32,518 nt of DNA, from positions 1 through 32,518 of the forward strand of contig BJHG01000019.1 in NCBI GenBank assembly GCA_014191975.1. The letters run 5' to 3'. Every line of letters starts with the position of its first letter. Position 1 is the first letter of the stretch. Origin of the DNA: Methylococcaceae bacterium (GTDB lineage: Bacteria > Pseudomonadota > Gammaproteobacteria > Methylococcales > Methylomonadaceae). Below are positions 2,468-25,809 of the stretch, one piece after another. A model generated the notes under the pieces. It saw nothing but the letters and a program-made list of their open reading frames with translations. It ran no database searches and was not told the origin of the DNA. The position numbers and the translations under genes are program-made.

Positions 2468-2469
2468 AT

Positions 2470-5400: not shown

Positions 5401-5601
5401 AGTGAGTTAATTGGTGGTGGTTGGGTACATTTGAGTGCGAAAGATCCCGATTCAGAAGACATTTTTGTATTTGAACGCGGCGTTGGTTTTGTACGTTGGC
5501 AAGCTGAAAAACAAAATTTGCCGATTTATGAAAAATCATCGGATTATTATCCAAATCACAGTGAACCGTTACCACCTGTGTTAATTAAACAACCTGAATA
5601 A
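2470..5601 (+). CDS. dabA: DabA (DUF2309), CO2-hydrating subunit of the DAB inorganic-carbon pump
   Basis: The 1043-residue protein is a DUF2309/UPF0753 member. DabA is a cytoplasmic, beta-carbonic-anhydrase-like zinc protein that works with the membrane protein DabB to accumulate bicarbonate, thought to be driven by ion gradients. The expected zinc site is complete: C519 and D521 in FCMDDRE, H710 in MGHGS, and C725 in YDCGACSGRHGG. The C-x-D and H-x14-C spacings equal those reported for the characterised Halothiobacillus DabA (C351/D353/H524/C539), so the fold is conserved but about 170 residues are added before the site. The gene starts 2 bases after the NuoM-like stop and ends 2 bases before the NuoL-like start, so it is co-transcribed with them. 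Confidence 0.93.
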   Translation: MKSTHSHSAREQILHALHHLDHILPAQAPILNFVHHNTIHGFQHLPFEEALAEFEKLTGIEGYLPEAQHRTFYEKGRIDDSDLFAALSANANLQSEQIFCELPNRKIYRKELYRLAMLFDFSAISASQFTWKIQESNVLKPNESLWQHILDKLDLTETELHVEDLFDLTPEQVANWQNSNSKQHVEESLTKSFSEIGNTVTLRGFIANLTGMDCLNFVRPQLIRLCASALDEGVAAWSVPNRSDTGLYGMWRAMLDYDANAFLAELPNAPELLAQLPDDVIDTIIFHLEAQHIPQEKWDGYLQRLALEIPGWAGMINWREQHLEYTTENDIKPKLADFLAIRLTLDRLYLNQICRDFWQCDARLDKLQTYFERNLAEFSVRSEFYAGNLPEYLSQQAQDVLNKPSIKNNFEQLADLISTWQNSPLAKTKESIYDEGWRLFCLCQHLDLNAAKIEALSSDLLREMLKLLDDFNDEERNKIWLVAYERHYRNQIFHGLTENYQRGRWYKREKRPSAQLIFCMDDREEAIRRHLEELNPEIETLGAAGFFGVPMNYKGLDDEKVTPLCPVVVVPSHEVQEIPTEQGLSVLPTHQSGRKKLLQAANVLHQSLRRNTVLSYPLIDVFAPFTLANLLGKSLIPKPQNSLMNGLTRFFMPEPETKLHFSAENNSRVATPELPRLGFTDIEQADRVAGFLRNTGLTYGFAEIVVLMGHGSISQNNPHLAAYDCGACSGRHGGPNARVFAAMANRPEIRILLAERGIEIPTDTWFVGSEHNTCNEIIDWYDVNEISIERANAFKELQQQLQHAQKMSAHERCRRLASAPKNPTPSKALFHIQERATDFSQARPELGHATNAFAVVGRRALTQGAFFDRRAFLISYDPTQDPEGKTLEGILLAVGPVGAGINLEYYFSTVNNERFGCSTKIPHNITGLFAVMEGASSDLRTGLPRQMIEIHEAMRLQIIVEAKTSVLEQIYARQPSLSELIGGGWVHLSAKDPDSEDIFVFERGVGFVRWQAEKQNLPIYEKSSDYYPNHSEPLPPVLIKQPE

Positions 5602-5603
5602 TT

Positions 5604-7166
5604 ATGAAAAATTTAGTCGTCTTTATTCCTCTAATTCCTTTACTTGCAGCCAGTTACATTGGGGTTTTGCATTTATTTAGCGTTCTCGACGGTGAAAAAA
5701 GTGAACGAATCACCGCCCGAATGGCAAATTATGCAATTGGACTTTCTTGTTTGTTGGCTTTAGCACTTTTGGGAACAGATTTATTTTCTCAAAATAACGA
5801 TGTTTTAATCGTTGGCGAATGGCTAAATGTCAATGATTTATCCATTCAACTCCGTTTTTTTACGCATGGATTTAGCCTAAAACTTGCCGCTTTATTTTCG
5901 ATTTTATTATTCATTGTGACGCGCTTTGCCGTGAATTATATGCACCGCGAGGCAGGTTTTCACCGCTTCTTTTTTGTGTTGAGTTTATTTTCAGCGGCAA
6001 TGCTAATGCTCGTTTTATCTGCTAACACTGTCGGCACATTTATCGGTTGGGAAATTGCGGGGCTTTGTTCGTATTTGCTGATTGGTTATATGTACGATAG
6101 ACAAACTGCAACCCAAAATGCCACACGAGTTTTTATTACAAATCGCATTGGTGATGCGGGTTTTGTCGCGGGCATTGGTTTGGGTTATCTTTGGTTAGGC
6201 AACACAAATTGGCTTGAAATGGGCGAATTGGCAAATCCACTTTCTAATCAACAAGCAGAATTATGTGCATTTTGTTTTGCCTTAGCGGCATTTGTGAAAT
6301 CTGCTCAATTGCCTTTTACGCCTTGGCTGGCGCGTGCAATGGAAGGTCCTACGCCGTCGAGTGCTATTTTTTACGGCTCGGTGATGATTCACGCTGGCGT
6401 TTATTTGTTATTTTTGATTCAACCTTTATTAGCTCACGCGCCACTCGTTTCAATGTTGATTGCCATTGTCGGATTATTTACCGCGATTTATGCGACGGTT
6501 GTTGGGCTAACGCAAACCGATATAAAAAGTTCACTAATTTTTGCAACGTCAGGGCAACTCGGATTATTGTTTTTGGAATGTGGTTTAGGTTTTTGGGAAT
6601 TGGCGATTTGGCATTTGTGCGCTCATGCCACAGTTCGAGCTTATCAATTACTTACTGCGCCATCGTTGCTGGTCAATGTCGCAAATAATCCGATAAAACC
6701 TGTTAATGCTTATTTGGCAAAAAATACCCGTTTTTATACTTACGCTTTGCAACGTTTTTGGCTTGAACCGTTAACGGATTTAATCATTGTTAAACCCATT
6801 CAAAACCTTGCAAGTGATTTGAATTATTTTGACAGACACATTCTGGATAATCTAATGGGTTCACCTGCGCCAGCCATTCGTGCAATTTCAAGTTTAGCGC
6901 AAGCCAAAGAACAACAAATTGGCGCACATCTTAATAACAACGAGAATTCATTTGCTCAAGGCAGTGGTTTTGCGGGGAAAATTACCCAATGGACAGCAGA
7001 TATATTAGATTGGTTTGAAAGTCGTTTCATTTTGCGAGGTGTTTCAAAAGACGCGATTGATTACGGTAAGCGTTTAGGACGGATTTGCCAATCTTGTGAA
7101 TTGATGTTGCTCAAACCGCGCTATTTAGCCTTATTTGTTTTCATTACTTTGCTGGTTGCTTTCTAA
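5604..7166 (+). CDS. dabB: DabB-like NuoL/NdhF-family membrane subunit
   Basis: This 520-residue protein has a NuoL/NdhF-type core: GWEIAGLCSYLLIG carries the conserved glutamate (E150) and FVKSAQLPFTPWL the conserved lysine (K232), followed by the family signature AMEGPTPSSA. It is shorter than complex I NuoL (about 610) and lacks a recognisable long lateral-helix arm. That length, and its place directly after dabA, fit DabB, the membrane partner that conducts cations while DabA hydrates CO2. Its last hydrophobic segment ends right at the stop. One base separates it from the next gene's ATG. Confidence 0.85.
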   Translation: MKNLVVFIPLIPLLAASYIGVLHLFSVLDGEKSERITARMANYAIGLSCLLALALLGTDLFSQNNDVLIVGEWLNVNDLSIQLRFFTHGFSLKLAALFSILLFIVTRFAVNYMHREAGFHRFFFVLSLFSAAMLMLVLSANTVGTFIGWEIAGLCSYLLIGYMYDRQTATQNATRVFITNRIGDAGFVAGIGLGYLWLGNTNWLEMGELANPLSNQQAELCAFCFALAAFVKSAQLPFTPWLARAMEGPTPSSAIFYGSVMIHAGVYLLFLIQPLLAHAPLVSMLIAIVGLFTAIYATVVGLTQTDIKSSLIFATSGQLGLLFLECGLGFWELAIWHLCAHATVRAYQLLTAPSLLVNVANNPIKPVNAYLAKNTRFYTYALQRFWLEPLTDLIIVKPIQNLASDLNYFDRHILDNLMGSPAPAIRAISSLAQAKEQQIGAHLNNNENSFAQGSGFAGKITQWTADILDWFESRFILRGVSKDAIDYGKRLGRICQSCELMLLKPRYLALFVFITLLVAF

Positions 7167-7167
7167 A

Positions 7168-8691
7168 ATGGCGTTGGATATTTCCGTTAGTTCTTGGTCA
7201 GACGTTGCACAATTTCCGCTGCTGACTACTCTCACCCTTGTACCGTTAATTGCGATGATTGCCGTCTGGTACGCGAATTCTAAAAAACAAGCCTGGATTT
7301 TTGCGTATTTTGGCGCAAGCATTAACGTACTTTTGAGTGGTTATTTACTTTGGCTATTTGATGACAATAAACAAGGCATTCAGCTTGCCGAACAATTTGA
7401 TTTATTCGGCTTGCATTATCGTGTGGGTTTGGACGGCGTAAATGTTTTGTTTATCCCGTTGACAGCAATTTTGACATTGCTGGCGTTAATTTATAGTTCG
7501 ATTACGCGCCACGCTGAAGATAAATGTTTTATTTCAGCGTTGCTAGGTTATCAAGCTATTTTAATTGGTGCATTTTCAGCGTTGAATGTAATGCAATTTT
7601 GGTTGTGGTCTGCAATGGAACTCGCGCCTGTGATTTACTTAACGCTTCATGCAGGAACGGGGCAAAATCGCAAAAAACTGGTCACGCTTTTGGTGCAATA
7701 CTGGGGTAGCGGACTGCTGATGACGTTTATTGGCTTTTTGGTTTTAGGGCTTGGCGTGGATGATAATCAGACAAGTTTTGACTGGCTCACGTTAGTTCAA
7801 AATAATGACCATTTGCACCATCATATTTTAATTTTTGTGTTGCTATTTTATGGCTTTGCGGTGCGAATGCCGCTGTTTCCATTTCACGGTTGGCTACCGA
7901 TTTTAGCTGAACACGGCACGGTTGCCAGCGCAGCGATTTTTATCGTTGGCTTGAAATTGGGAATTTATGCCGTGATTCGTTTCATTTTACCTTTAGTGCC
8001 GCTGGTCGCCGAACATTGGGCAAACTTTGTAGTATTACTTGGTTTAATCAGTATTTTTTACGGCGCATTGCTCGCATTGATGCAAATTAACATTCGTCGT
8101 TTGTTAGCATTCGCGGTGATTAGCCACACAGGAATGCTGATTATTGGTATTTTTTCATTTGACGAACACGGTTTGGAAGGCACGATTTTATTGTCACTCA
8201 CTTACGGTTTAGCTACAGCGGGAATGCTATTTTGCGTAGGCTTAATTTACGAACGTACACGAACGGCTTTTATTCCACGTTTAGGCGGTTTGTTTGATTC
8301 AAATACACCGATTGGTTTGCTGTTTTTAATCAGCGCGTTAAGCACAATGGTCATGCCTGGCACACCTGGATTTGATGCCGCGCATTTGCTTTTAGAAGGC
8401 TCAATTGAACAACACGGCTGGTGGGTGGCAATTACGATTTTAATCGGTAATGTTTTAGCAACCGCGTTTTTATTATGGACATTTCAACGGCTATTTATTG
8501 CGAATTGTAATCGAACGATTCAACCTTATGGCAGTTTGCATCATCCTGTTTTTAGCGAAAGTGTGATTGTTTTAGCGATTAGTTTGCTGTTAATTGGAAC
8601 AGGTTTTGACACCACACCGCTACTTGATTTTATTGATAAAAAAGCCGCTAGCATTAGTAGTTCTTATCCAAAACTCACACATCAACCATGA
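7168..8691 (+). CDS. NuoM-like subunit 2 with Arg in place of the channel Lys
   Basis: This is a 507-residue NuoM-family membrane protein. The ATG at 7168 lies one base after the upstream stop and is preferred over an in-frame TTG at 7135 inside dabB. The glutamate of the fifth helix is kept (E151 in WSAMELAPV), but the key lysine of the seventh helix is replaced by arginine (R233 in GFAVRMPLFPFHGWLP). The later acidic position, a GFxAEF-like motif in its paralogues, reads GFDAAH. This suggests a subunit with altered or lost proton translocation, perhaps structural. It overlaps the next gene by four bases (ATGA), so translation is coupled. Confidence 0.82.
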   Translation: MALDISVSSWSDVAQFPLLTTLTLVPLIAMIAVWYANSKKQAWIFAYFGASINVLLSGYLLWLFDDNKQGIQLAEQFDLFGLHYRVGLDGVNVLFIPLTAILTLLALIYSSITRHAEDKCFISALLGYQAILIGAFSALNVMQFWLWSAMELAPVIYLTLHAGTGQNRKKLVTLLVQYWGSGLLMTFIGFLVLGLGVDDNQTSFDWLTLVQNNDHLHHHILIFVLLFYGFAVRMPLFPFHGWLPILAEHGTVASAAIFIVGLKLGIYAVIRFILPLVPLVAEHWANFVVLLGLISIFYGALLALMQINIRRLLAFAVISHTGMLIIGIFSFDEHGLEGTILLSLTYGLATAGMLFCVGLIYERTRTAFIPRLGGLFDSNTPIGLLFLISALSTMVMPGTPGFDAAHLLLEGSIEQHGWWVAITILIGNVLATAFLLWTFQRLFIANCNRTIQPYGSLHHPVFSESVIVLAISLLLIGTGFDTTPLLDFIDKKAASISSSYPKLTHQP

Positions 8692-10169
8692 ACGTCGCAA
8701 CTTTTCCAATGTTAAGTTTGATTCTTTTTTTCCCCTTTGTTGGTGTATTAGCGATTGCGGTTATAAATTCTGTTGAAATCGCAAAAAAAATTGCGTTGAT
8801 GACAGCAATTATTGAACTGATTGCCACGTTAATTGTTACGTTTTCATTTGATGCAGAAGTCGCTGGATTTTCACAAGTCGAACGTTATCGCTGGATTCCG
8901 AATCTAAACGCGGAGTTTTTGCTCGGTGTTGATGGAATTTCAGTTTTATTTTTACCCGCTTCGGCATTGCTAACACTGATAACAATTCTTGCGTCGTGGA
9001 ATAACGTTAATCATTTGTCGCGGTTACATTTTGCCTTGTTGCTGATTTTAGAAAGCGTCACGCTAGGCGTTTTTACTGCACTGGATATGTTGTTGTTTTT
9101 CTTATTTTGGGAAGCGACATTGCCGCCGATTTTTTTTCTTATCGGTTTGTGGGGAATTGGAGCGCAACGTCGAGAAGCCGCGTTGAAATACACGTTATTT
9201 ATGTTGTTTGGCGGCGTGCCGTTGTTGTTTGCAATCATAGTTTTGGCGACAAATCACGCGACGCAAACGGGCGAATTATCGTTTAGTTTTTTGCAATTAT
9301 TACAAACACCAATGGCAGACAATTTACAGCTAATTGTATTTTTACTGCTGGTTTTAGGCTTTGCGGTAAAAGCCCCGCTCGCACCGTTTCATACTTGGTT
9401 GCCAACGGTTGCCATGCAAGCACCGACACAAATTAGCGCGTTATTAATGGGTTTAAAATTAGGCGCATTTGGTTTATTACGTTTTGCTTTTCCACTTGCC
9501 CCACACGCAGCGGCGCATCACGCTTGGATTGTGGCGTTATTGGGTGCCGTGACGTTGGTTTATGCCGCGTTGATTGCGTTGAAACAAACCAATTTGCGCG
9601 AATTGTTAGCGTATTTGAGCATTAGTCACGTTGGTTTAGTTGTGTTGGGTATTGCGAGTTTGAATGAACAAAGTTTGCAAGGTGTGATTTTTCAACTGCT
9701 CAATTTTAGTTTGATTGCTAGTGGTTTGATGTTGCTTGCAGGTTTTATGCAACAACGATTTGGTTCAACTGAACTGATTCATTTGGGAGGATTGGCAAAA
9801 GTGATGCCGAAAATGACAGCCTTCTTTTTCTTGTTTAGTCTTGCCAGTATTGGAATGCCGTTAACTAGCGGTTTTCCTGCTGAAATATTGCTGATTATCG
9901 GCGTGATGAAAAATCATCTTGGTTTAGGCATTGCGGCATTATGTGGCGCAATTTTAGGTGCGGCAGCATTACTGACTTTTATTCGTGGTTCATTTTTAGG
10001 CGCGATTATTTATGAAAATCTAAAACAAACTAGCGATTTACGTCCGCGTGAATGGCTGGTTTTAGGTGTACCAATTTTGCTGGTGATAATTTTTGGTTTG
10101 TTTCCACAAATTATTTTGGATACGACCAAACATGCGGCGCAATTTTGGCTGAGTCGGCTTATTTTCTAA
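8688..10169 (+). CDS. NuoM-like proton-channel subunit 3
   Basis: The 493-residue product is a third NuoM/NdhD-family paralogue. It has the conserved glutamate (E142 in FLFWEATLPPIFFLIG), the conserved lysine (K228 in GFAVKAPLAPFHTWLP) and an acidic residue in GFPAEILL near the last helices, so all key ion-path positions are present. It starts in an ATGA overlap with the previous gene and ends 14 bases before the SulP-CA gene. Together with the other paralogues it gives the cluster four antiporter-like subunits, against one in the minimal DabAB. Confidence 0.85.
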   Translation: MNVATFPMLSLILFFPFVGVLAIAVINSVEIAKKIALMTAIIELIATLIVTFSFDAEVAGFSQVERYRWIPNLNAEFLLGVDGISVLFLPASALLTLITILASWNNVNHLSRLHFALLLILESVTLGVFTALDMLLFFLFWEATLPPIFFLIGLWGIGAQRREAALKYTLFMLFGGVPLLFAIIVLATNHATQTGELSFSFLQLLQTPMADNLQLIVFLLLVLGFAVKAPLAPFHTWLPTVAMQAPTQISALLMGLKLGAFGLLRFAFPLAPHAAAHHAWIVALLGAVTLVYAALIALKQTNLRELLAYLSISHVGLVVLGIASLNEQSLQGVIFQLLNFSLIASGLMLLAGFMQQRFGSTELIHLGGLAKVMPKMTAFFFLFSLASIGMPLTSGFPAEILLIIGVMKNHLGLGIAALCGAILGAAALLTFIRGSFLGAIIYENLKQTSDLRPREWLVLGVPILLVIIFGLFPQIILDTTKHAAQFWLSRLIF

Positions 10170-10183
10170 GGAGAACAACTTAA

Positions 10184-12352
10184 ATGCGTCAACATCTAAA
10201 CTGTGATATTCCAGCGGGTATTTCGATTTTTCTGATTGCCATTCCATTATCACTTGGTATTGCATTAGCCTCTGGCGCACCGCTATTTTCGGGACTTATT
10301 GCCAGTATTATCGGTGGTTTGATTGTTGCGCCATTAAGCGGTTCAGCATTAGGCATTAGTGGCGCGGCGGCAGGATTAGTTATTTTAATGTTGAGTGAAA
10401 TTCAAGCACTCGGTTTTGCTGCCTTTTTGTTAGCGGTGATTTTAGCTGGCGTGTTTCAAATTTTAATGGGCTTGGTAAAAATGGGTTCGATTGCTCATTA
10501 CTTCCCTAGTTCTGTGATCAAAGGAATGTTGTCTGGCATTGGCATCGTTATTTTTCTCAAACAAATTCCCCACGCGGTCGGTTACGATAGCGATTACGAA
10601 GGCGATTTATCTTTTTTTCAACCCGATAATTATTCTTCATTTAGTGAATTAGTCGAAATGTTGAAATTTTCGTCACCGACAGCAATTTTTATCGCGCTTA
10701 TTTCGTTAGGGATTTTGATTTTATGGGAACGCCCCGCTTTCAAAAAAAGTAACTTTTTTCAAGTGTTGCATGGTACGTTAATCACGATTGTCGTTGGCAT
10801 TTTGATTAACGAATTTTTACAAAATCATTATCCTGATTTGGCGTTAAAAGAATCACATTTGGTGAATTTGCCCGTTGCCGAAAATACGGGTGAATTATTG
10901 TCACAAATGCACAGCCCCGATTTTTCGCAATTTACGAATCCCGCTGTTTATGTTGCGGCATTGATGTTGGCATTTTTGGCAAGTTTAGAAACCTTGCTTG
11001 CAGTTGAAGCGGTTGATCGCTTGGATGTTTTCAAGCGCGTTACACCGCCGAATCGTGAGTTAGTCGTCCAAGGCATTGGCAATATCGCGTCAGGTTTATT
11101 GGGCGGTTTGCCAATTACGCAAGTTATTATTCGCAGTTCCATCAACGTTCAATCGGGTGCAAAAACAAAAGCGTCAGGCGTTATTTCAGGTGCATTTTTG
11201 TTGGTGACGGTCTGTTTAATTCCCGAATATCTGAACAAAATTCCGTTAGCGAGTTTGGCGAGTATTTTGTTGGTTGTGAGTTATAAATTAACGCACCCAC
11301 GAGTTTTCAAAAAAATGTACAACGCGGGTTTTTATCATTTCATTCCGTTTATTGCCACGATTGTCGGGCTGATTTTGACCAATTTAATGATTGGCATTTT
11401 AATTGGCATGGCGGCGGCTTTGTTGTCGATTGTGTTAGAAAATTACAAAACCGTACAGTATTTTCGAGAAACCCACATCGGCAACAAAATCATTTTTCGC
11501 TTATCGGAACACGTTTCGTTTTTAAACAAAGCGATATTGAAACAAACCTTTGATCAATTGCCTGCGAATTCTGAAATTGTAATTGATGCAACACGCTCGA
11601 AATATCTTGATTACGATGTTTTTGAGGTAATTCGAGATTTCAAAAAAGAAGCTCCACTTAAAAACATTCAACTCACGCTGCAAAATGTGCGCGGTTTTGG
11701 AATTTTGAAGCCCGTTGAAAATGTTCAAGCTCACACTTATGAAAGCCAGCAAGCACTTACGTCTGCCGAAGTGTTGCAGGTTCTCAAAGACGGCAACGCG
11801 AATTTTGTGAATAATTTGGAATCAAATCGCAATTTTCTAGAACAAGTCAATGACACTAGCGATGGTCAATTTCCGATTGCGATTATTTTGAGCTGCATGG
11901 ATTCACGTACCTCGACGGAATTGGTTTTTGATCAAGGGCTGGGTGATATATTTAGCACACGTGTTGCTGGAAATGTTGTGAATAATGACATTTTGGGAAG
12001 TATGGAATACGCTTGCCAAGTCGCGGGGTCAAAGCTAATTGTTGTTTTAGGACACACACATTGTGGCGCTATTAAAGGCGCGTGCGCTCAAGTAAAACTT
12101 GATCATTTAACAGGTTTGCTCGATAAGATTCAGCCTGCTGTGAATTGTATTTGCTCAAAAAATAACGTTACAGAAATTGGATGCCGTGACGATTTAATTC
12201 AAGAAGTCGCGGATAAAAATGTGCAGATAATGGTTGAGAAAATTAAGCAACGTAGTCAAGTTCTTAACGATTTATTACAAGCAAGAAAAATCGGAATTGT
12301 CGGTGGAATGTACGATATTGAAACTGGAAAAGTAAAATTTTACGAAGCGTAA
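10184..12352 (+). CDS. SulP-family bicarbonate transporter fused to beta-carbonic anhydrase
   Basis: The 722-residue fusion has three parts. Residues about 1-420 are a SulP/SLC26-type transporter (10-12 hydrophobic segments, starting with PAGISIFLIAIPLSLGIALASG). Residues about 430-520 resemble a STAS domain. From about 530 to the end lies a beta-carbonic anhydrase with zinc ligands C571, H624 and C627 (SCMDSR and GHTHCG) and the D573/R575 dyad. Such fusions are proposed to import bicarbonate and interconvert it with CO2 at the membrane. AAGGAG at 10168-10173 lies ten bases before the ATG and overlaps the previous stop. Being last in the operon fits a second, DAB-independent route for inorganic carbon. 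Substrate preference cannot be read from sequence; sulfate is the alternative for the SulP part. Confidence 0.88.
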   Translation: MRQHLNCDIPAGISIFLIAIPLSLGIALASGAPLFSGLIASIIGGLIVAPLSGSALGISGAAAGLVILMLSEIQALGFAAFLLAVILAGVFQILMGLVKMGSIAHYFPSSVIKGMLSGIGIVIFLKQIPHAVGYDSDYEGDLSFFQPDNYSSFSELVEMLKFSSPTAIFIALISLGILILWERPAFKKSNFFQVLHGTLITIVVGILINEFLQNHYPDLALKESHLVNLPVAENTGELLSQMHSPDFSQFTNPAVYVAALMLAFLASLETLLAVEAVDRLDVFKRVTPPNRELVVQGIGNIASGLLGGLPITQVIIRSSINVQSGAKTKASGVISGAFLLVTVCLIPEYLNKIPLASLASILLVVSYKLTHPRVFKKMYNAGFYHFIPFIATIVGLILTNLMIGILIGMAAALLSIVLENYKTVQYFRETHIGNKIIFRLSEHVSFLNKAILKQTFDQLPANSEIVIDATRSKYLDYDVFEVIRDFKKEAPLKNIQLTLQNVRGFGILKPVENVQAHTYESQQALTSAEVLQVLKDGNANFVNNLESNRNFLEQVNDTSDGQFPIAIILSCMDSRTSTELVFDQGLGDIFSTRVAGNVVNNDILGSMEYACQVAGSKLIVVLGHTHCGAIKGACAQVKLDHLTGLLDKIQPAVNCICSKNNVTEIGCRDDLIQEVADKNVQIMVEKIKQRSQVLNDLLQARKIGIVGGMYDIETGKVKFYEA

Positions 12353-19063: not shown

Positions 19064-19606
19064 ATGAAAACTCCCCGATTAGCTTGGGCGATGACTGGCT
19101 CAGGACATTACATTACCGAATGCGTTGAATTTTTATTGACGCTTGAAAACGTCGATTTATACATCAGCCAAGCAGGCGAAGAAGTTCTAAAAATGTACGG
19201 CGTTTCACTCAGTGATTTGCGCGAAAAAATGCCTGTTTATCGCGACAAAACCGCCTCCTGTCCACCCGTTGGACACTTTTACAAAGGCTATTACCACACG
19301 TTTGTTCTCGCGCCCGCGACTTCTAACACGATTGCAAAATGCGTGTTAGGCATCGCCGATTCTCTCGTTACCAATCTATATTCACAAGCTGGAAAATGCC
19401 GCGTGCCAAGCATCGTTTATCCGTGCGACATTGCGCCCGAAATGGAAACCACCGCTCCGAGTGGGAAAGTCATGGTTTATCCCCGAAAAATTGATTTAGA
19501 TGGCACAGAAAAAATTCGTCAATTTGAATATACCACCGTTGTCGAAAGCGTTGACGCCCTGATTTCAACTGTTCAGGAACGCTTAACCACTTTAAAAAAC
19601 CAATGA
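19064..19606 (+). CDS. afpA: AfpA/DmrB-like flavoprotein of H4MPT biosynthesis
   Basis: This 180-residue flavoprotein of the Dfp/UbiX-like fold has an FMN-binding start AWAMTGSGHYITE, an internal LAPATSNTIAKCVLGIADSL and a cysteine-rich YPCDIAPE. It resembles archaeal-type flavoproteins annotated as AfpA or dihydromethanopterin reductase (acceptor), which in methylotrophic bacteria lie in H4MPT gene clusters. It would reduce dihydromethanopterin or a related intermediate. Genes for the same pathway follow at 23831, 25820 and 26362, but 4.2 kb of foreign genes lie between. Its TGA overlaps the ATG of the next frame. No strong Shine-Dalgarno is visible. Confidence 0.72.
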   Translation: MKTPRLAWAMTGSGHYITECVEFLLTLENVDLYISQAGEEVLKMYGVSLSDLREKMPVYRDKTASCPPVGHFYKGYYHTFVLAPATSNTIAKCVLGIADSLVTNLYSQAGKCRVPSIVYPCDIAPEMETTAPSGKVMVYPRKIDLDGTEKIRQFEYTTVVESVDALISTVQERLTTLKNQ

Positions 19607-19684
19607 CTACAATCAGCATCGACACCCAACGCGACCGCGCCGCAAAATTCGCAAAACAATTTGAAACCGCCAGTTATGAAATGG
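19603..19684 (+). repeat. MmeI-like gene head, copy 1 of 2
   Basis: These are the first 82 bases of the MmeI-like head. They match 23074-23155 at 73 of 82 positions, same strand, and both copies start in an ATGA overlap with the preceding gene's stop. Most differences are at third codon positions, which suggests two related genes that diverged under protein-level constraint rather than a recent duplication. Confidence 0.85.
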
Positions 19685-20298
19685 GACAGGCACAACGATT
19701 TGTCACCGATTTTTGTGAAATTTTCGGGATTGACCACCGCCGTTTGTTAGATTTTGAAACACGGGTAAAAAAATCAGGCGGCAAACGCGGACGAATCGAC
19801 GCATTTATTCCGAGCTTGTTACTGGTTGAAATGAAATCAGCAGGCGAAGATTTAGACAAAGCCTACGCGCAGGCAACCGAGTATTTTCACGGCTTGAAAA
19901 ATGAAGAATTGCCGCGCTCCGTGTTGGTGAGCGACTTTCAAAACTTGCATCTTTATAACCTCGAAACTCACACCGAACCCGTAAAAATCAAACTCGCAGA
20001 CTTAGCCCAGAAAATTGACCATTTTCAATTTTTAGCAGGCTACGAACGGATTGCGATTGAAAACCAGCAGAAAATAATTTGTACGACAATTGATTTGTTT
20101 GCAGGCATTGGCGGCATTCGTTTAGGTTTTGAATCTCAACGCTGTAAAAACGTTTTTTCTTCCGAGTGGGACAAAGACACTCAAAAAATGTACCAAGAAA
20201 ATTTTGGTGAAATGCCACACGGCGACATCAATTTTATTGAACCTAACGACATCCCAGATCACGATATTTTATTAGCAGGCTTTTATGGAAATTACTAA
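19603..20298 (+). pseudogene. Hybrid: MmeI-type nuclease head fused to truncated C5-cytosine methyltransferase
   Basis: The 231-residue frame joins two unrelated pieces. Residues 1 to about 155 match the N-terminal nuclease domain of type IIL (MmeI-like) restriction-modification enzymes, including the catalytic D66, E76 and K78 (GRIDAF, LVEMKSAG) with the same spacing as MmeI D70/E80/K82, and the domain end HFQFLAGYE. From about residue 160 it switches to the start of a Dcm-type methyltransferase: SAM motif I DLFAGIGG (164-171), motif II EWD and DHDILLAGF. It breaks off exactly where motif IV PCQPFS should follow, ending in YGNY. All catalytic and target-recognition methyltransferase parts are missing. 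The ATG overlaps the afpA stop (ATGA). The nuclease core could still fold; methylation cannot occur. Confidence 0.8.
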
Positions 20299-21040
20299 TA
20301 GAGATAAGGCTGTTCTTATTGGTTTATATCTTTCAAAATTTGACATTGAAGGGCTTAAAAATTTTGGTTTTTCTAGTTTTACCGAAGCATTCAATACATT
20401 TGGCTATGCTATTGGAGTTAAGCCTGCATCATTGAAGAATTATCGAGATGAATTTGATCCTTTGTTTCCAAATCCAAGAAAAGGTTGGCATAAAAGAGAA
20501 ATTAGAGATTATTGTAAAAGTTGTTACCACAAATATAAAGACTGGCAGCTAAATACTTTTTCTGAATTTATTAAATGTATTGTTTATCCTCACTACGAAA
20601 CCCAAATATTTGCTGAAAGAATTTTTTATGATCACGAAAAAATAGAACAAACTACATTTGCAAAAAGATTAGCAACAGGGCAAGCCGCAGAACAATACTT
20701 TAGAGATGTCTATAATAAAATTCCCATTTTTGAAGATTTTATTTTGGAAGATACAACTAAACTTGGATGCGGGTTTGACTTTAAGTTACATTCAAATGCA
20801 AGTGATAAATTCCTTGCCATTGAGGTAAAAGGCATAAATGGTTCGTCTGGCAATATTATGCTAACTGAAAAAGAACTTAAAATTGTAAATTATCTAAAAG
20901 ATAATTACTACGTTTTCGTTGTAAAGAATTTTGTTGATAAACCAGAGCATATTTATTTTCAAGATCCTCTAAATTGCACTTTAAAATTTGAAAAAACGGA
21001 AAGCAAAATAATTCAGATAAATTACAGCGCAAAAATTTAA
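20285..21040 (+). CDS. DUF3883 / PD-(D/E)XK nuclease-like protein, probable restriction endonuclease
   Basis: The product is 251 residues. The N-terminal half (1-120) is helical and rich in aromatic and charged residues and is not recognised. The C-terminal half has GCGFDFKLH and LAIEVKGINGSSGNIMLTEKE, giving D165, E180 and K182 as a PD-(D/E)XK nuclease site, with the pattern of DUF3883 domains found in restriction-linked proteins. The ATG lies 14 bases inside the 3' end of the broken methyltransferase frame. Its base composition is visibly more A/T-rich than the flanking metabolic genes, which suggests transfer. Its expected partner would be a methyltransferase, here only the truncated C5 enzyme. 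Confidence 0.65.
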   Translation: MEITNRDKAVLIGLYLSKFDIEGLKNFGFSSFTEAFNTFGYAIGVKPASLKNYRDEFDPLFPNPRKGWHKREIRDYCKSCYHKYKDWQLNTFSEFIKCIVYPHYETQIFAERIFYDHEKIEQTTFAKRLATGQAAEQYFRDVYNKIPIFEDFILEDTTKLGCGFDFKLHSNASDKFLAIEVKGINGSSGNIMLTEKELKIVNYLKDNYYVFVVKNFVDKPEHIYFQDPLNCTLKFEKTESKIIQINYSAKI

Positions 21041-21043
21041 CAA

Positions 21044-21253
21044 ATGAAAATATATAAAATTAGTAAGCCGATAATAACAACATTATGGGTTGAATGTGGT
21101 TCAGAAGTTGAAGCAATGAATTGGGCAAATAAAATTGTAGCGACAATTGAAGATGAAAATGGAGTGTTTATTTCCTCGAATGCAATTCGCTATTTTGAAG
21201 CAGAAGCAATTGATTCAGAAGTAAAAATTTTGGAAATTACAGATGAAGCCTGA
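21044..21253 (+). CDS. Small hypothetical protein before the HaeII-like gene
   Basis: This acidic 69-residue protein is not recognised. It is tightly packed, three bases after the DUF3883 gene and overlapping the HaeII-like gene by 11 bases, so it is likely co-translated with them. It has no signal peptide or membrane segment. The composition (many Glu, Ile, Ala) and size would suit a small accessory or control protein, but no helix-turn-helix is visible. Confidence 0.5.
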   Translation: MKIYKISKPIITTLWVECGSEVEAMNWANKIVATIEDENGVFISSNAIRYFEAEAIDSEVKILEITDEA

Positions 21254-22196
21254 AACTATGCTTTCAGATTTGACGACTTATCGCACAAAATCAAAAAAGT
21301 GGCGGGATGTAATTTGTATTCAATTTTTAGGTCGTACAAGTACATCGTCGGCACGTTATCAAGATGATATTTTTAACGATAATGCCGTGCCACCAGCTGT
21401 TTTAGCAATCCTAGGTCAAGAAAATAGAGATACAAATGGGATTGTTGAAGCCTATGTTTATCGAAAATTTTTACAACGTTTTAGCCAAATGTCTACAGGG
21501 TTAGATTATTGCGTCACACACGACAAAACAAATTTTCAGCTAGACGAATTTTTGGCGATGTTCTGGCATGAACCTGGATTGCGCCGAAGCATAGATAAAG
21601 TTTATGAAATCATTGTTTATGTGTTATTTGCCGTTTTGGTTGAAGCTCTTGAAGTTTCTGTTGAAGTCAGTATGAATCCTAATAAAACCGATATTCTCAA
21701 CGAATTTGCTGATTTTGCGAAAAGCGTTATTCAACTTACACCTGAACAAACCACAATAAATCTTAAAGCCAGAATAAACCGTGTTGGCGTGACGAATGCG
21801 GCTGATCGTGGGCTTGATATGTGGGCAAATTTTGGTTTAGCGATTCAAATTAAACATCTTTCTTTAACTGAAGAATTAGCTGAAAACATTGTTTCGTCAG
21901 TGTCAACTGACCGTATTGTCATTGTTTGTAAAGATACAGAACAAAAAATAATCGTTTCGTTGTTAAATCAAATGGGCTGGAAATCAAAAATTCAAAGCAT
22001 CGTTACTGAAAGTGATTTGTTGAGATGGTACGAAAAATCCTTGCGAGGCAAATTTTCTAATTCGGTTGGTAATGCTGTGTTGAAAAAACTATCAGACGAA
22101 ATACAAGTTGAATTCCCAACAACCGACAAAAAAGAATTTCTGCAATTTATCGAAAAACGTGGTTATGACAAACTGACTAACGAAAGTTGGAAATGA
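21243..22196 (+). CDS. HaeII-family type II restriction endonuclease
   Basis: This 317-residue protein resembles the HaeII endonuclease family, recognised by RDVICIQFLGRTSTSSARYQ near the N-terminus and by a C-terminal core LDMWANFGLAIQIKHLSLTEELAE, in which D...QIK could be the metal-binding nuclease signature, followed by DRIVIVCKDTEQ and QMGWKSKIQSIVTE. HaeII itself cuts RGCGCY; specificity here is not readable. A later ATG at 21258 is a possible alternative start. No intact cytosine methyltransferase that could protect the host is found in the window. The TGA overlaps the ATG of an MmeI-like tail remnant. Confidence 0.75.
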   Translation: MKPETMLSDLTTYRTKSKKWRDVICIQFLGRTSTSSARYQDDIFNDNAVPPAVLAILGQENRDTNGIVEAYVYRKFLQRFSQMSTGLDYCVTHDKTNFQLDEFLAMFWHEPGLRRSIDKVYEIIVYVLFAVLVEALEVSVEVSMNPNKTDILNEFADFAKSVIQLTPEQTTINLKARINRVGVTNAADRGLDMWANFGLAIQIKHLSLTEELAENIVSSVSTDRIVIVCKDTEQKIIVSLLNQMGWKSKIQSIVTESDLLRWYEKSLRGKFSNSVGNAVLKKLSDEIQVEFPTTDKKEFLQFIEKRGYDKLTNESWK

Positions 22197-22312
22197 AAAA
22201 GGACGACGCGACACGGGTGGCGTTTTTGTTTGAGAAATATCAGGAATTGGTTGCGCCGTTGGTGGAGGTTGAGAAGGTGAAAAAAATGGGACGGAAAAGT
22301 TCGGTGATTTAA
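22193..22312 (+). pseudogene. MmeI-like C-terminal remnant (tail 1)
   Basis: A 39-codon frame starting ATG in the HaeII-like stop (ATGA) reads MKKDDATRVAFLFEKYQELV then a Lys-rich end. The RVAFLFEKYQ motif with a basic tail is how MmeI-type restriction-modification proteins end. With the head at 19603 it brackets the methyltransferase-fragment/DUF3883/HaeII block, as if this block replaced the middle of an MmeI-like gene. Confidence 0.65.
22228..22284 (+). repeat. MmeI-like gene tail, copy 1 of 3
   Basis: These 57 bases match 23760-23813 with two substitutions and one 3-base gap. An inner 27 bases (22247-22273) are identical to 23159-23185. All copies are on the + strand and, read in the same frame, encode LVAPLV and a Lys-rich end. 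Confidence 0.9.
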
Positions 22313-22394
22313 ACAAGCTAATCAATCAAACTGTCATTCATCTGGCGGTTTTTTTATTCTTTAAATATGGAAAATTTTTCTATATCATTCACCA

Positions 22395-22628
22395 ATGACA
22401 ACAAAACAACGCTTCCGTAATAAATACACACTCCAAGTTAGAGAACGCGACCACAATCCGCCACATGTTCATTTTTATGGTGCGGGTTATGACGTAATAA
22501 TTCTCCTTGAATCACTTGAATTTAGTGGAAATTTTCCATCAAATACAATTCAAAACGAAGTGATGGCATGGGTTGGTGAAAATCAAAATGAACTTTTTAA
22601 GGAATGGTATCTATGGCACACGAAATGA
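22395..22628 (+). CDS. DUF4160 protein, putative toxin-antitoxin component
   Basis: This 77-residue protein has the DUF4160 pattern: RERDHNPPHVHFYGAGYDVII followed by the W...N...L...W end. DUF4160 genes are commonly paired with DUF2442 genes and are suspected type II toxin-antitoxin partners; activity is unproven. It overlaps the downstream gene by 16 bases. It lies between tail 1 and head 2 of the MmeI remnants. No strong Shine-Dalgarno precedes this ATG. Confidence 0.72.
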   Translation: MTTKQRFRNKYTLQVRERDHNPPHVHFYGAGYDVIILLESLEFSGNFPSNTIQNEVMAWVGENQNELFKEWYLWHTK

Positions 22629-23077
22629 AACGTCCTCGATTTAAATCAGTTGAGGTATTAGAGGATTTTAAAATTCGAGCAACATTTATCAATGACAGTA
22701 TTTTTACCATTGATTTCAAACCATTTTTTGCAGAATCGCCGCGATTACGTGAATTGCTTGGCAAACAAACCGTATTTGAAAAAGCGGCAATCATTGAAGG
22801 CGAAGGTTGGGCGGTGGAATGGCAAGATTTAGATATTCAAATTGGCGCGGATACACTTTGGTTAGACGCACAAGCACAAAATGCAACTGATGAAAATACG
22901 AAAATTTTTGCAACGTGGCGGGCGCGTAACGGTTTATCGCTTGCTGAGGCGGCGAAAGCGTTAGGCATGACTTCACGCACGATGAGTGCTTATGGAACAG
23001 GACAACGCCCAGTTCCGCGTTATATTGCGCTTGCTTGTAAAGGTTGGGAAGCTGAAAAAAAATCCCTTAGCGTATGA
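22613..23077 (+). CDS. DUF2442 protein with C-terminal XRE-type helix-turn-helix
   Basis: The product is 154 residues from ATG 22613, chosen because AAGGA (22599-22603) lies nine bases upstream; ATGs at 22604 and 22625 are less well spaced. Residues about 8-80 form a DUF2442 domain (PRFKSVEVLEDFKIRATFIN, LRELLGKQTVFEKA). Residues about 105-145 form an XRE-like HTH (RARNGLSLAEAAKALGMTSRTMS). It probably acts as the DNA-binding antitoxin/autoregulator of the DUF4160 pair. Its TGA overlaps the ATG of MmeI head 2. Confidence 0.72.
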   Translation: MAHEMKRPRFKSVEVLEDFKIRATFINDSIFTIDFKPFFAESPRLRELLGKQTVFEKAAIIEGEGWAVEWQDLDIQIGADTLWLDAQAQNATDENTKIFATWRARNGLSLAEAAKALGMTSRTMSAYGTGQRPVPRYIALACKGWEAEKKSLSV

Positions 23078-23155
23078 CCACAATCAGCCTCGACACTCAA
23101 CGCAACCGTGCCACAAAATTCGCCAAACAATTTGAAATCGCTAGTTATGAAATGG
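23074..23155 (+). repeat. MmeI-like gene head, copy 2 of 2
   Basis: This direct copy of 19603-19684 (73 of 82 bases identical) lacks the downstream nuclease-encoding part present after copy 1. Confidence 0.85.
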
Positions 23156-23224
23156 ACGTTGGTTGCGCCGTTGGTGGAGGTTGAGCAAATTACAAAAACT
23201 AAAAAATCGAAGGTGAAAAAATGA
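23074..23224 (+). pseudogene. Collapsed MmeI-like gene: head 2 joined to tail 2
   Basis: Bases 23074-23155 encode a second MmeI-like N-terminus (MTTISLDTQRNRATKFAKQF...). After ATGG the sequence jumps to tail sequence (23159-23185, identical to 22247-22273) and continues in the tail frame as LVAPLVEVEQITKTKKSKVKK to a TGA at 23222-23224. Head and tail are in different frames, so the head frame stops early, at a TGA at 23182-23184. This is a whole gene of probably about 900 codons reduced to about 150 bases by one internal deletion. It begins in the DUF2442 stop (ATGA) and ends in the next gene's start (ATGA). Confidence 0.8.
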
Positions 23225-23430
23225 GCTACGCAATTGAGCAACAAGAATGGCAAAATTTGCCAGAACACGCACAACGTGAAATTTATGATTTTTTTCTGTT
23301 CATAAAACAACGTTATGCAACGCCAACCCAACCCGAAAATGAACTAAGCGAATTAACGGCTTTTTCAAATCACAGTGCGAATCTTGTTGAAGAATGGGCG
23401 AGTGAAAAAGAGGACGAAATATGGACATAA
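23221..23430 (+). CDS. DUF2281-like putative antitoxin
   Basis: This 69-residue acidic protein has the pattern LPEHAQREIYDFFLFIKQRY, typical of DUF2281/antitoxin-like helices in which a leucine-rich start (LPEE...EVLDFIEFLK in other family members) precedes a variable tail. It overlaps the following PemK/MazF-like gene by 10 bases, the order expected of antitoxin before toxin. Its ATG overlaps the stop of tail 2. Confidence 0.62.
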   Translation: MSYAIEQQEWQNLPEHAQREIYDFFLFIKQRYATPTQPENELSELTAFSNHSANLVEEWASEKEDEIWT

Positions 23431-23765
23431 AAACCGCAGACGTTGTGTTGTGCGAGTTTTATTTTAGCGATTTGAAAGCGAGTAAAAATCGTCCTGTTTT
23501 GGTATTAAAAAATAATTTGCCTTACGATGATTTCGTCGGTTTGCCGATTAGTAGCCAGCTGGACAAGTTGCACGAAGGCGAAGTTGAGATTGATAATTCG
23601 ATGTTTCAATTTGGTGGTATTCCAAAAAAATCGAAAATAATTATTCGGAAGCCGTTTGTGATTTCAAAAAATGTGGTGATTAAAAAATACGGTTCACTCA
23701 ATCAAAGCGATTTTGAAAAGTATCATCGATTATTTTGTCAGTATTTCGGTTGTGACTGCGTTTGA
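23421..23765 (+). CDS. PemK/MazF-like toxin
   Basis: This 114-residue protein has the MazF/PemK fold signature: the N-terminal DVVLCEFYFSDLKASKNRPVLVL (G/D-D-V-V...RP-x-LVL), then VGLPISSQ and the C-terminal IRKPFVISKNVVIKKYG. Family members are ribosome-independent mRNA interferases neutralised by the upstream antitoxin. The usual glycine of GDVV is alanine here (TADVV). The last codons and stop are formed at the junction with tail 3 (GTTTGA is shared with the repeat), so the original C-terminus may be altered. Confidence 0.72.
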   Translation: MDIKTADVVLCEFYFSDLKASKNRPVLVLKNNLPYDDFVGLPISSQLDKLHEGEVEIDNSMFQFGGIPKKSKIIIRKPFVISKNVVIKKYGSLNQSDFEKYHRLFCQYFGCDCV

Positions 23766-23817
23766 GAAATATCAGAACTTGGTTGCGCCGTTGGTGGTTG
23801 AGAAGGTGAAAAATTAA
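23760..23817 (+). pseudogene. MmeI-like C-terminal remnant (tail 3)
   Basis: This third copy of the MmeI tail reads FEKYQNLVAPLVVEKVKN and ends in TAA (23815-23817). It matches tail 1 (22228-22284) with two substitutions and a 3-base gap. It has no start and no head; its first bases supply the stop codon of the PemK-like toxin. It marks the right edge of the island, 13 bases before the H4MPT gene at 23831. Confidence 0.8.
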
Positions 23818-23830
23818 ACAAAAGGATTTC

Positions 23831-25216
23831 ATGACAGAACACATTTTATTTTTAACGGGTTCACTCGCTGAAAAACAGTTGCGAAGTATTTTAGAAAAAA
23901 TGCAGCCCGAATTTACTTACACGGTGCATCAATTAGGTCTGAAAGTCTCGGCGTTAATGACTACAGACATGATTGCGCGTCGGCTCACCGATACATTCGG
24001 CGCGACAAAAATCATTCTTCCGGGTCGGTGTCGTGGCGATATAATCGCGCTTTCTGAAAAATTGGGCATTCCTGTCGAACGTGGCACGGAAGAAGTGAAA
24101 GATTTGCCGTTATTTTTTGGTAAGAAAATCCAGATTGTGAATTTAGATAATTACAGCGTGAAAATCTTTGCTGAAATTACCGACGCGCCAAATTTAACCG
24201 TGCTTGAAATTTTGAATCGTGCCGCCTATTATCGAAGGAATGGCGCGGATGTGATTGATTTGGGGTGTTTACCGAGTACGCCATTTCCGCACATGGAAGA
24301 CGCGATTTCTGCGTTAAAACAAGCGGGTTTTTTGGTGAGTTTGGATTCGCTCGACACTGTGGATTTATTGCGAGGCGGCAAGGCTGGCGCGGATTATTTG
24401 TTGAGTTTGCATGAATCTACGATGTGGATTGCGGACGAAGTGAACGCCACGCCGATTATTATTCCCGAAACGCATACCGATTTAGACTCGCTCGATCGGG
24501 CGATTAAAATCATGCAGGCGAAAAACCGTCCATTTGTCGTTGACCCAATTTTAGACCCGATTCATTTTGGTTTTACCGCGTCGATTGTGCGTTATCACGA
24601 AGTTCGAAAAAATCATCCCGACGTAGAAATGATGATGGGTGTGGGCAATATTACTGAATTGACACACGCCGACACCGCTGGCATGAATGCGATATTGATG
24701 GGAATGTGTTCGGAGTTGAATATCAATCATATTTTAGCGACTGAAGTCAGCAATCATGCGGCGCGAGCGATAAAAGAAGCGGATTTAGCGCGGCGCATTA
24801 TGTTTGCCGCCAAAGAACATGACACGTTGCCAAAACATATCAATTCGGGTTTGATGGCGTTGCACGAACCCGCCGCTTTTCCATATTCGTTGGATGAAAT
24901 TCAAGAACTCGCGGCGCAAATAAAAGATCCGAGTTATCGCATTCAAATCAGTGAAAACGCCGTGCATATTTTTAATCGTGACGGTTTTCACAGCGCGACC
25001 GATCCGTTTGAATTATTCCCAAAGTTAGGCGTTGAAAACGATGGCGGTCATGCGTTTTATTTGGGTGTGGAATTGGCACGTGCTGAAATTGCCCAAAAAT
25101 TAGGCAAGCGTTTTAATCAAGATCAATCGTTGGATTGGGGTTGCGCGGTGGATTCAACAGAATCTGAAATCGATTTGCACACCTTCAAACCCGCTGGAAC
25201 TACATTAAAAAAATGA
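23831..25216 (+). CDS. DUF6513 dihydropteroate-synthase-like protein of H4MPT biosynthesis
   Basis: The product is 461 residues. The N-terminal about 110 residues form the DUF6513 domain (ILFLTGSLAEKQLRSILEKM, ILPGRCRGD). A TIM-barrel pterin-binding (dihydropteroate-synthase-like) domain follows, with GADVIDLGCLPSTPFP, LVSLDSLD, VVDPILDPIHFGF and MMMGVGNITELTHADTAGMNA. Such proteins occur almost only in H4MPT-producing bacteria and archaea, where they are believed to act in pterin-aminobenzoate-type joining or a related step; the exact reaction is not settled. AAAGGA (23821-23826) precedes the ATG. Its TGA overlaps the ATG of the transposase gene that follows. Confidence 0.85.
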   Translation: MTEHILFLTGSLAEKQLRSILEKMQPEFTYTVHQLGLKVSALMTTDMIARRLTDTFGATKIILPGRCRGDIIALSEKLGIPVERGTEEVKDLPLFFGKKIQIVNLDNYSVKIFAEITDAPNLTVLEILNRAAYYRRNGADVIDLGCLPSTPFPHMEDAISALKQAGFLVSLDSLDTVDLLRGGKAGADYLLSLHESTMWIADEVNATPIIIPETHTDLDSLDRAIKIMQAKNRPFVVDPILDPIHFGFTASIVRYHEVRKNHPDVEMMMGVGNITELTHADTAGMNAILMGMCSELNINHILATEVSNHAARAIKEADLARRIMFAAKEHDTLPKHINSGLMALHEPAAFPYSLDEIQELAAQIKDPSYRIQISENAVHIFNRDGFHSATDPFELFPKLGVENDGGHAFYLGVELARAEIAQKLGKRFNQDQSLDWGCAVDSTESEIDLHTFKPAGTTLKK

Positions 25217-25809
25217 ATACGCTACCGCAACGCAGTTCAATACGTTTACGTCATTATGATTATTCGCAGGCGGGTTTCTATTTTGTTACGATTTGTACGC
25301 ACGAAAAACAGGCGTTATTTGGTGAAATTATCACTGGGGAAATGCGTTTAAACCTTGCGGGAATCATTGCACAATCGGAATGGCATAAAACGGGGTTGAT
25401 GCGTGAAAAAATTATTTTGCATGATTTTGTGGTGATGCCAAATCATGTTCATGGAATTATCGAAATTGTGAATTTAAACGATATAACCTCCGCCAATTAT
25501 CCAAATGTAGGGGCGCACTGCGTGCGCCCGCATAACGACAGCATTCACGACGACGACAATTCCGTCTATTATCCAAATTCTGTTATTGGTGGGCGCACGC
25601 AGTGCGCCCCTGCGCTGGGTTTTGTGATTCAAGGTTATAAAGCCGCTGTCACAAAACAAATCAATTTGCTGTGTGGTGTTACAGGTCAAAAAATCTGGCA
25701 ACGTAATTACCATGAACACGTTATTCGCAACGAAGCCTCTTACCTAAAAATTGCCGAATATGTTCAAACCAATCCGTTAAAATGGCACGACGACCGTTAC
25801 CACTTCTAA
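25213..25809 (+). mobile_element. REP-associated tyrosine transposase (TnpA-REP, Y1 family)
   Basis: This 198-residue single-domain HUH transposase has FYFVTICTHEKQALFG near the N-terminus, the HUH metal motif MPNHVHGII (H78, H80), and YHEHVIRNEASYLKIAEYVQTNP, with Tyr183 the likely nucleophile (Tyr177 is an alternative). Family members act on REP/BIME hairpins and are usually single-copy, domesticated genes. The ATG overlaps the DUF6513 stop (ATGA). The segment about 90-135 is unusual: it contains the translation of two REP-like hairpins (GAHCVRP and GRTQCAP). The gene lies between two H4MPT genes on the same strand. Confidence 0.88.
25510..25610. repeat. Inverted pair of REP-like hairpins inside the transposase gene
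   Basis: The 20 bases at 25510-25529 are the exact reverse complement of 25591-25610. Each arm is itself a hairpin: an 8-bp stem GGGCGCAC/GTGCGCCC with a 3-base loop (25511-25529 and 25591-25609). This is the layout of a BIME (two REPs in opposite orientation), 61 bases apart, here in frame within the coding sequence. The arms are far more G/C-rich than the surroundings. Confidence 0.85.

Follow-up and report, generated by a model that had tools for sequence, protein, structure and literature searches.

The window, a stretch of 32,518 nt from a Methylococcaceae bacterium (assembly GCA_014191975.1, contig BJHG01000019.1), is part of contig C19 in a genome of 131 contigs, designated G000. Positions 19603–23817 hold an island in which two starts (heads) and three ends (tails) of genes of the MmeI type, the Type IIL class of restriction–modification (R-M) enzymes, are interleaved with restriction and toxin–antitoxin (TA) genes. 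The island and its two bordering genes are composed of the following parts, with open reading frame abbreviated as ORF.

19064–19606, forward strand: afpA-like flavoprotein gene, left border (Pfam Flavoprotein; NCBIfam AfpA below cut-off).
19603–20070, forward strand: head 1, a complete MmeI_N nuclease domain of 468 nt, the first 82 nt being the repeated head.
20071–20298, forward strand: 5′ remnant of an M.HaeII-type C5-methyltransferase gene, fused in frame to MmeI_N (Pfam DNA_methylase, residues 161–227).
20285–21040, forward strand: NOV_C/DUF3883-type ORF (Pfam E 2.8e-12).
21044–21253, forward strand: 69-aa ORF, no family match.
21243–22196, forward strand: predicted HaeII-type endonuclease of 317 aa (Pfam RE_HaeII, E 1.5e-139, profile positions 36–338 of 338).
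22196–22288, forward strand: tail 1, C-terminal coding end of an MmeI gene.
22395–22628, forward strand: DUF4160 protein (DhiT-like toxin match below curated cut-off).
22604–23077, forward strand: DUF2442 and helix-turn-helix (HTH) protein (Pfam).
23074–23155, forward strand: head 2, remnant of an MmeI start.
23159–23207, forward strand: tail 2, joined out of frame to head 2.
23221–23430, forward strand: DUF2281-like (VapB-like) putative antitoxin (below curated cut-offs).
23421–23765, forward strand: PemK/MazF-like predicted toxin (PemK_toxin above cut-off).
23760–23813, forward strand: tail 3.
23831–25216, forward strand: DUF6513-like/dihydropteroate-synthase-like gene, right border (TIGR00284 below its cut-off).

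Apart from DUF2281, which falls below the curated cut-off, Pfam reproduces the gene order given by the first-pass annotation. Neighbouring parts share their edges. The stop codon of the afpA-like gene overlaps the ATG of head 1, and that of the DUF2442–HTH gene overlaps head 2, each within an ATGA. The PemK/MazF-like gene takes its final codon and stop from tail 3. Head 2 and tail 2 form a frame-shifted join that runs for 36 residues before a stop. The DUF2442–HTH protein is likely the partner of the DUF4160 protein.

The repeated ends had been recognized from the letters alone and are recovered by search. The two heads (19603–19684 and 23074–23155) match at 89% over 82 nt, and a search of the whole G000 genome with 19603–20070 finds head 2 at E 3.1e-24. 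The tail copies at 23760–23813 and 23159–23198 match tail 1 at E 2.0e-16 and 9.4e-8, respectively. A fourth, 40-nt tail-like "copy" at 23022–23061 (63%) is probably due to chance. Tail 1 starts at 22196, upstream of the 22228 first proposed, as judged by the MmeI gene of G009:C96, which matches at 94% over 89 nt. It is 94–95% identical over 87–89 nt to the MmeI gene ends of G009:C96, G003:C13, G010:C28, and G014:C182. Heads and tails alike thus match MmeI-family ends.

Head 1 was at first read as an 82-nt remnant. It is instead a whole MmeI_N domain, with homology reaching residue 156 (Pfam E 6.1e-30), followed by residues 161–227 of a C5-methyltransferase. Head 1 matches the MmeI structure 5hr4 at E 3.9e-33 and keeps the D...E-M-K pattern, which we take to be catalytic; at the sequence level it thus has the PD-(D/E)XK nuclease domain of MmeI and Type IIL enzymes. 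It shares 97–98% amino acid identity with four loci of G011 and G003. The other domains of a Type IIL polypeptide, with its N6-adenine methyltransferase (MmeI_Mtase), target recognition domain (MmeI_TRD), and C-terminal domain (MmeI_C), are absent from the nine island ORFs scanned with Pfam.

The segment 19596–20283 is 93% identical to a gene in G011 that encodes a full MmeI_N::M.HaeII fusion, and the homology stops at about 20283. Only about the first 67 residues of the methyltransferase remain in the window, where a block containing NOV_C replaces most of M.HaeII together with the start of R.HaeII. The window R.HaeII is a predicted HaeII-type endonuclease by profile; it has 317 residues against 352 in G011, and lacks the first 35 profile positions at its N terminus. 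No complete M.HaeII is found elsewhere in the G000 assembly, which holds one other partial C5-methyltransferase match (37%). For the NOV_C ORF, no relative with a solved structure appears at E up to 1, and TmtA models match it weakly and in parts. With M.HaeII cut short, R.HaeII truncated, and two MmeI units gone, the window system looks worn.

The clearest change of payload between shared ends is seen at a locus between GNAT and NifE genes, border names that are partly assigned by eye. G014:C182 carries an MmeI gene of 938 aa with MmeI_N, hel, Mtase, TRD, and C domains, followed by a tail, BrnT, BrnA, and a second tail. G011:C220 has MmeI_N::M.HaeII (473 aa) and R.HaeII (352 aa) in place of the MmeI gene, followed by the same tail–BrnT–BrnA–tail order (BrnT by Pfam, BrnA by eye). 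The segment comprising BrnT/BrnA, the second tail, and the end of GNAT, with the first tail excluded, is identical at 640 of 643 positions. Starting halfway along the first tail and continuing to the end of GNAT, the two sequences align almost perfectly, whereas upstream of the tail the alignment collapses. The right switch point therefore lies inside the first tail, and the left one just within the other flank. Measured in 250-nt steps, identity is 94–100% within the 1.25 kb leading up to the tail; further out, most steps give 79–94% (one end step 95%). Upstream of their MmeI-type gene, both genomes have a tail-like piece of 27 nt (L079 8220–8246 and L096 8933–8959) that may be due to chance. 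In G004, GNAT and NifE stand about 130 nt apart, an empty site.

The slot occupied by the island is similarly variable. Its flanks are conserved genes across relatives rather than unrelated sequence, the DUF6513-like gene being present in 17 of 18 genomes of the genus. The afpA and DUF6513-like genes abut in seven of the 18 (G001, G003, G004, G007, G010, G011, and G017), and the whole island is thus an insertion. About 1.7 kb separates them in three more, G005, G016 (both with ORFs read), and G013 (by size only); the slot ORFs of G005 and G016 are presumably ars-like. The comparison of this slot in relatives, proposed by the first-pass annotation, finds an intact 931-aa MmeI gene followed by a DUF559 gene in G009, so that an MmeI gene fills the slot in another species. 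G000 carries the present island and G008 has another gene after afpA; G002, G006, G012, G014, and G015 fall outside the classification. Different R-M payloads within shared flanks are thus found at the GNAT–NifE locus, and the afpA–DUF6513 slot varies as well.

The HaeII unit is found in several settings. R.HaeII occurs in eight of the 18 genus genomes (nine matches; in two pieces in G006). In G000, G011, and G008 it lies between MmeI_N and an MmeI tail, with different neighbors, and the methyltransferase is fused to MmeI_N in G011 and G008, where the G008 contig starts inside MmeI_N at residue 60 of the fusion. Among the 80 of 301 relatives listed from a genome collection, in which G000's own records are possibly left out, G011 holds the one full-length fusion and G008 the one that leaves its contig at residue 60. 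Another three are confined to the MmeI_N part (up to residue 183), and the other 75 begin matching at residue 116 or beyond, mainly in the methyltransferase. A structure prediction of the G011 fusion made without an alignment had a mean predicted local distance difference test score of 34 and was not used. In G007, the methyltransferase starts with MTKIINIENQQK, similar to the MmeI_N end IENQQK, and this start may be a scar of an MmeI_N fusion. G009:C96 presents a related arrangement: M and R HaeII genes are enclosed by the first ~25 nt and the last ~54 nt of a different MmeI-like gene (L211 5974–8015). That gene is represented by two ORFs in G000:C45 (L175 1825–4688; MmeI_Mtase, hel, and N matches) and by a 987-codon open frame in G010.

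Divergence at synonymous sites (dS) differs between head and payload. Between G000 and G011, dS is 0.30 (95% bootstrap 0.18–0.44) for MmeI_N, 0.51 (0.25–0.99) for the M.HaeII fragment, and 0.68 (0.52–0.90) for R.HaeII. Given 0.30 for MmeI_N against 0.68 for R.HaeII, the head and the endonuclease seem not to share a common history. Between G011 and G008, the MmeI_N, M.HaeII, and R.HaeII parts all have a dS of 0.44–0.47, against 1.17 for afpA, the one yardstick gene. The MmeI_N part of this pair (97 codons held by both assemblies) has a nonsynonymous divergence (dN) of 0.009 and a dN/dS of about 0.02, and because of this low ratio between two species the nuclease part of the fusion is suggested to work. 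The fusion apparently moved between species as a unit, with its predicted nuclease part maintained. The G011 HaeII genes are closer to the MmeI-free copy of G004 (L207; dS 0.26 for M and 0.25 for R) than to those of G008 (0.47 and 0.44), and payloads may pass between fused and free HaeII forms.

Remnants of MmeI genes occur at several further loci. G017:C84 holds a gutted MmeI gene with head, internal piece, and tail, G009:C5 a decayed copy next to an intact MmeI gene, and G010 a lone head after an MmeI gene. Comparison of these loci shows that predicted MmeI genes lose their interior while head and tail scars stay; the survival of pieces (mostly ends, two internal) is biased, most loci having been fetched through tail or MmeI matches. 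Pure decay would hold that a row of MmeI–TA units was inherited intact and hollowed by internal deletions, with no exchange of payload. The head 2–tail 2 join and the remnants of G017, G009:C5, and G010 are what it predicts. It leaves unexplained why G014 and G011 differ in the genes enclosed by the same ends at one locus, why three species have the HaeII unit between an MmeI_N and a tail with different neighbors, and why there are empty sites; we regard it as unlikely.

The first-pass annotation had offered two alternatives, hollowed tandem MmeI genes with the TA pairs kept, or conserved ends serving as sites of cassette exchange. The former holds for head 2–tail 2, G017:C84, and a lone tail at G000:C34, and fails for the first module, which is an MmeI_N–M.HaeII fusion and not an MmeI shell. 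The latter agrees with the different payloads found between the same ends (G014/G011; the HaeII unit in G000, G011, and G008), while dedicated borders are not supported and ordinary recombination suffices. At the level of gene comparison both processes are seen, and they are compatible.

The remnant loci show additional features. At G000:C34 (L174 2072–2224), the lone tail is followed by an ATGA and a pair of small genes, the second zeta-toxin-like by eye. The MmeI gene of G017:C84 (L180 4215–4939) is gutted stepwise, with a CCDC90-like gene (below cut-off) and a BrnA-like remnant between the head and the last tail. At G014:C74 (L176 1285–2608), an MmeI tail precedes another payload, composed of an ApeA N-terminal-domain fragment and an AAA_15 ATPase gene.

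TA-like genes lie between two MmeI tails at five loci beyond that of the window: G014/G011:C220, G003:C13, G011:C21, G001:C88, and G098, which belongs to another genus. Gp49-like and HI1420-type antidote genes stand between an MmeI tail and a second, shorter tail in G003:C13. G011:C21 has a PemK-like ORF on the opposite strand, with no partner identified, and G098 has BrnT- and BrnA-like ORFs (by eye). In G001, a tail, a 268-aa gene, DUF2281/PemK, and a tail follow one another between dprA-like and smg-like genes. MmeI is not detected in G001, although tails are present. By comparison across loci, TA-like genes are repeatedly found with a full MmeI tail on one side and a second, shorter tail on the other.

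Such an order, with a complete coding tail on the left, a shorter tail on the right, and TA genes between, could result from insertion of TA or R-M units with a long target duplication of about 60 bp. For R-M systems, excerpts of PMC3874152 report target duplications on the order of 100 bp, and direct repeats of about 50–60 nt flank addiction-type modules here as they do there. The repeats of the present loci differ in being 3′ ends of another R-M gene with unequal lengths and C-terminal codons. The length varies between cases, and right tails with C-terminal codons of their own (VKKVKKSTA against VKAKRVKK in G014) suggest the terminus of a previously resident gene more than a copy made upon insertion, which makes this explanation unlikely.

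Alternatively, the tail could be the recombination site of an unidentified integrase, with TA genes plus tail forming a cassette. DUF2281/PemK and a tail occur together at two loci (G000 and G001), with the left edge at an ATGA start and the same right joint: PemK joins the tail at the same alignment position in both, while a relative in G004 has a different C terminus and no tail. The tails of G001 also fit a mobile cassette. However, the starts of the extra tails vary, falling at about 28, 32, 33, 40, 47, and 51–52 of tail 1 (BLAST), and their right ends vary as well, unlike the fixed-end recombination site of an integron-like array. The tails are MmeI coding ends, and some second tails remain in frame to a stop of their own. 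Pfam identifies no recombinase among 10 window proteins scanned, and none was noticed in the ORF lists through which the other window genes and loci were read, a search that was not exhaustive. With varying tail ends and no recombinase noticed, an integrase-type system was rejected as the principal explanation and is very unlikely.

The comparisons as a whole suggest that the island is an R-M/TA slot built by repeated recombination among MmeI-type units within one genus, to which we give a probability of about 0.7. MmeI-type ends persist while the predicted payload between or after them differs. This is best explained if gene ends act as residual homology for swapping R-M and TA payloads by homologous and illegitimate recombination, and the ends look like common anchors used in ordinary recombination and not like components of a dedicated machinery. 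Incoming DNA with a relative of the resident MmeI gene would recombine by homology, probably RecA-type, in the head or the tail. The other side would be joined by homology or, occasionally, illegitimately; homology-facilitated illegitimate recombination is described in excerpts of PMC3240628. R-M and TA genes would thereby be swapped in, added, or lost, leaving the old ends behind as scars for the next exchange to use. In G000, the first unit would once have been MmeI_N::M.HaeII with R.HaeII, from which the NOV_C block later cut off the methyltransferase; a second MmeI gene would have been hollowed, and a third would have left only its tail.

Several observations weigh against this explanation. 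All of it is drawn from one genome per species, mostly many-contig drafts, and the events themselves are unobserved. A site-specific system would also be compatible with the sequence data, and the several extra tails that start at 28–33 of tail 1 might point to a favored site. HaeII systems exist without MmeI ends: none was found at those of G004, G015, G007, and G006, except a 28-nt antisense match near that of G004, and the G007 and G006 loci are interrupted by contig ends. The dS of R.HaeII between G000 and G011 (0.68–0.69) is close to that of afpA (0.79), so dS alone is no proof of its lateral transfer. In a self-comparison with limited flanks, from which G000 tail 1 and G011:C220 were left out, a second downstream tail is found for four of 27 distinct tails (G014:C182, G003:C13, G011:C21, and G098). 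The similarity of tails may also partly reflect codon or protein constraint. Although agreement at fourfold sites is 175/205 in the tail and 2471/4530 in the body (seven genus MmeI genes, 21 non-independent pairs), and the tail window ranks top of 37 in synonymous codon agreement, its lead is narrow (86 against 83% for the runner-up). The head window is ordinary (67%). Homogenization of both MmeI ends, considered as a candidate, is thus at best weakly supported.

Tail DNA is found in 28 of 151 family genomes. A tail pattern allowing up to three mismatches gives 18 matches in nine of the 18 genus genomes and none with the reversed control. MmeI_N occurs in 12 of 61 relatives, and MmeI protein matches, remnants included, in nine of the 18 genus genomes.

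RepL-like genes of plasmid-replication type lie directly upstream of MmeI genes (L077 5561–6076, L094 5929–6462, and L082 806–1357), with a match of E 4.8e-5 for L094 and assignment by likeness only for L077 and L082. The gene before the MmeI gene in the G009 slot has only a weak HTH match and resembles a RepL-matching gene before another G009 MmeI gene. The upstream RepL-like genes hint at a plasmid origin of MmeI units.

Elsewhere in the window, a REP-associated-transposase-like ORF (25213–25809, by eye) lies directly 3′ of the DUF6513-like gene and contains a perfect 21-nt inverted repeat (25509–25529/25591–25611). ORFs at 989–12352 resemble, by eye, DabA/NuoL–NuoM-type proton pumps and a SulP transporter–carbonic anhydrase fusion, likely an inorganic-carbon uptake set.

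The arrangement has parallels in the known exchange of R-M alleles and movement of domains, but its architecture is unusual. Of the MmeI family, as judged by the match of head 1 to 5hr4, the window keeps only the ends and the nuclease domain. As in HaeII R-M systems, R matches RE_HaeII, and M and R occur together in relatives; the fusion of M to MmeI_N in G011 and G008, and the lack of a cognate full C5-methyltransferase in the window, set the present systems apart. In Streptococcus pneumoniae, DpnI and DpnII share a site and its flanks. A given pneumococcus has one or the other, and dpnI has been replaced by dpnII in the laboratory, according to excerpts of PMC3573125; in S. suis, excerpts of PMC5398294 describe one locus with different defence elements by strain. 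The present loci are similar to such alternative alleles, but the shared part also takes in the R-M gene's own ends. Domain movement (DOMO), by recombination at repeats flanking target recognition domains, likewise uses conserved sequence inside R-M genes as homology, as far as excerpts of PMC3077401 describe it. DOMO moves recognition domains, whereas the present ends have complete R-M genes of a different class, and also TA-like genes, between or after them. No description of MmeI ends as exchange borders, or of such a nuclease–C5-methyltransferase fusion, appears in the literature excerpts consulted. What seems new is the recurrence, at several loci, of one R-M class's ends as borders of a second R-M class and of TA-like genes, together with the resulting chimera.

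A broader proposal, which we put forward tentatively and with some doubt, is that Type IIL ends serve as portable homology arms of a recombinase-free platform. Any payload with an MmeI head or tail could be swapped into MmeI-occupied slots, and the process would be the origin of a maintained MmeI nuclease::C5-methyltransferase enzyme form beside its own endonuclease. If so, no mobile element would be needed for unrelated defence classes to replace one another, the ends of the resident gene providing the homology, and MmeI_N::M.HaeII would be a testable chimera. The slots would also permit asking whether loss or replacement of R-M systems runs via addiction, as TA-like genes stay where the R-M gene is gone.

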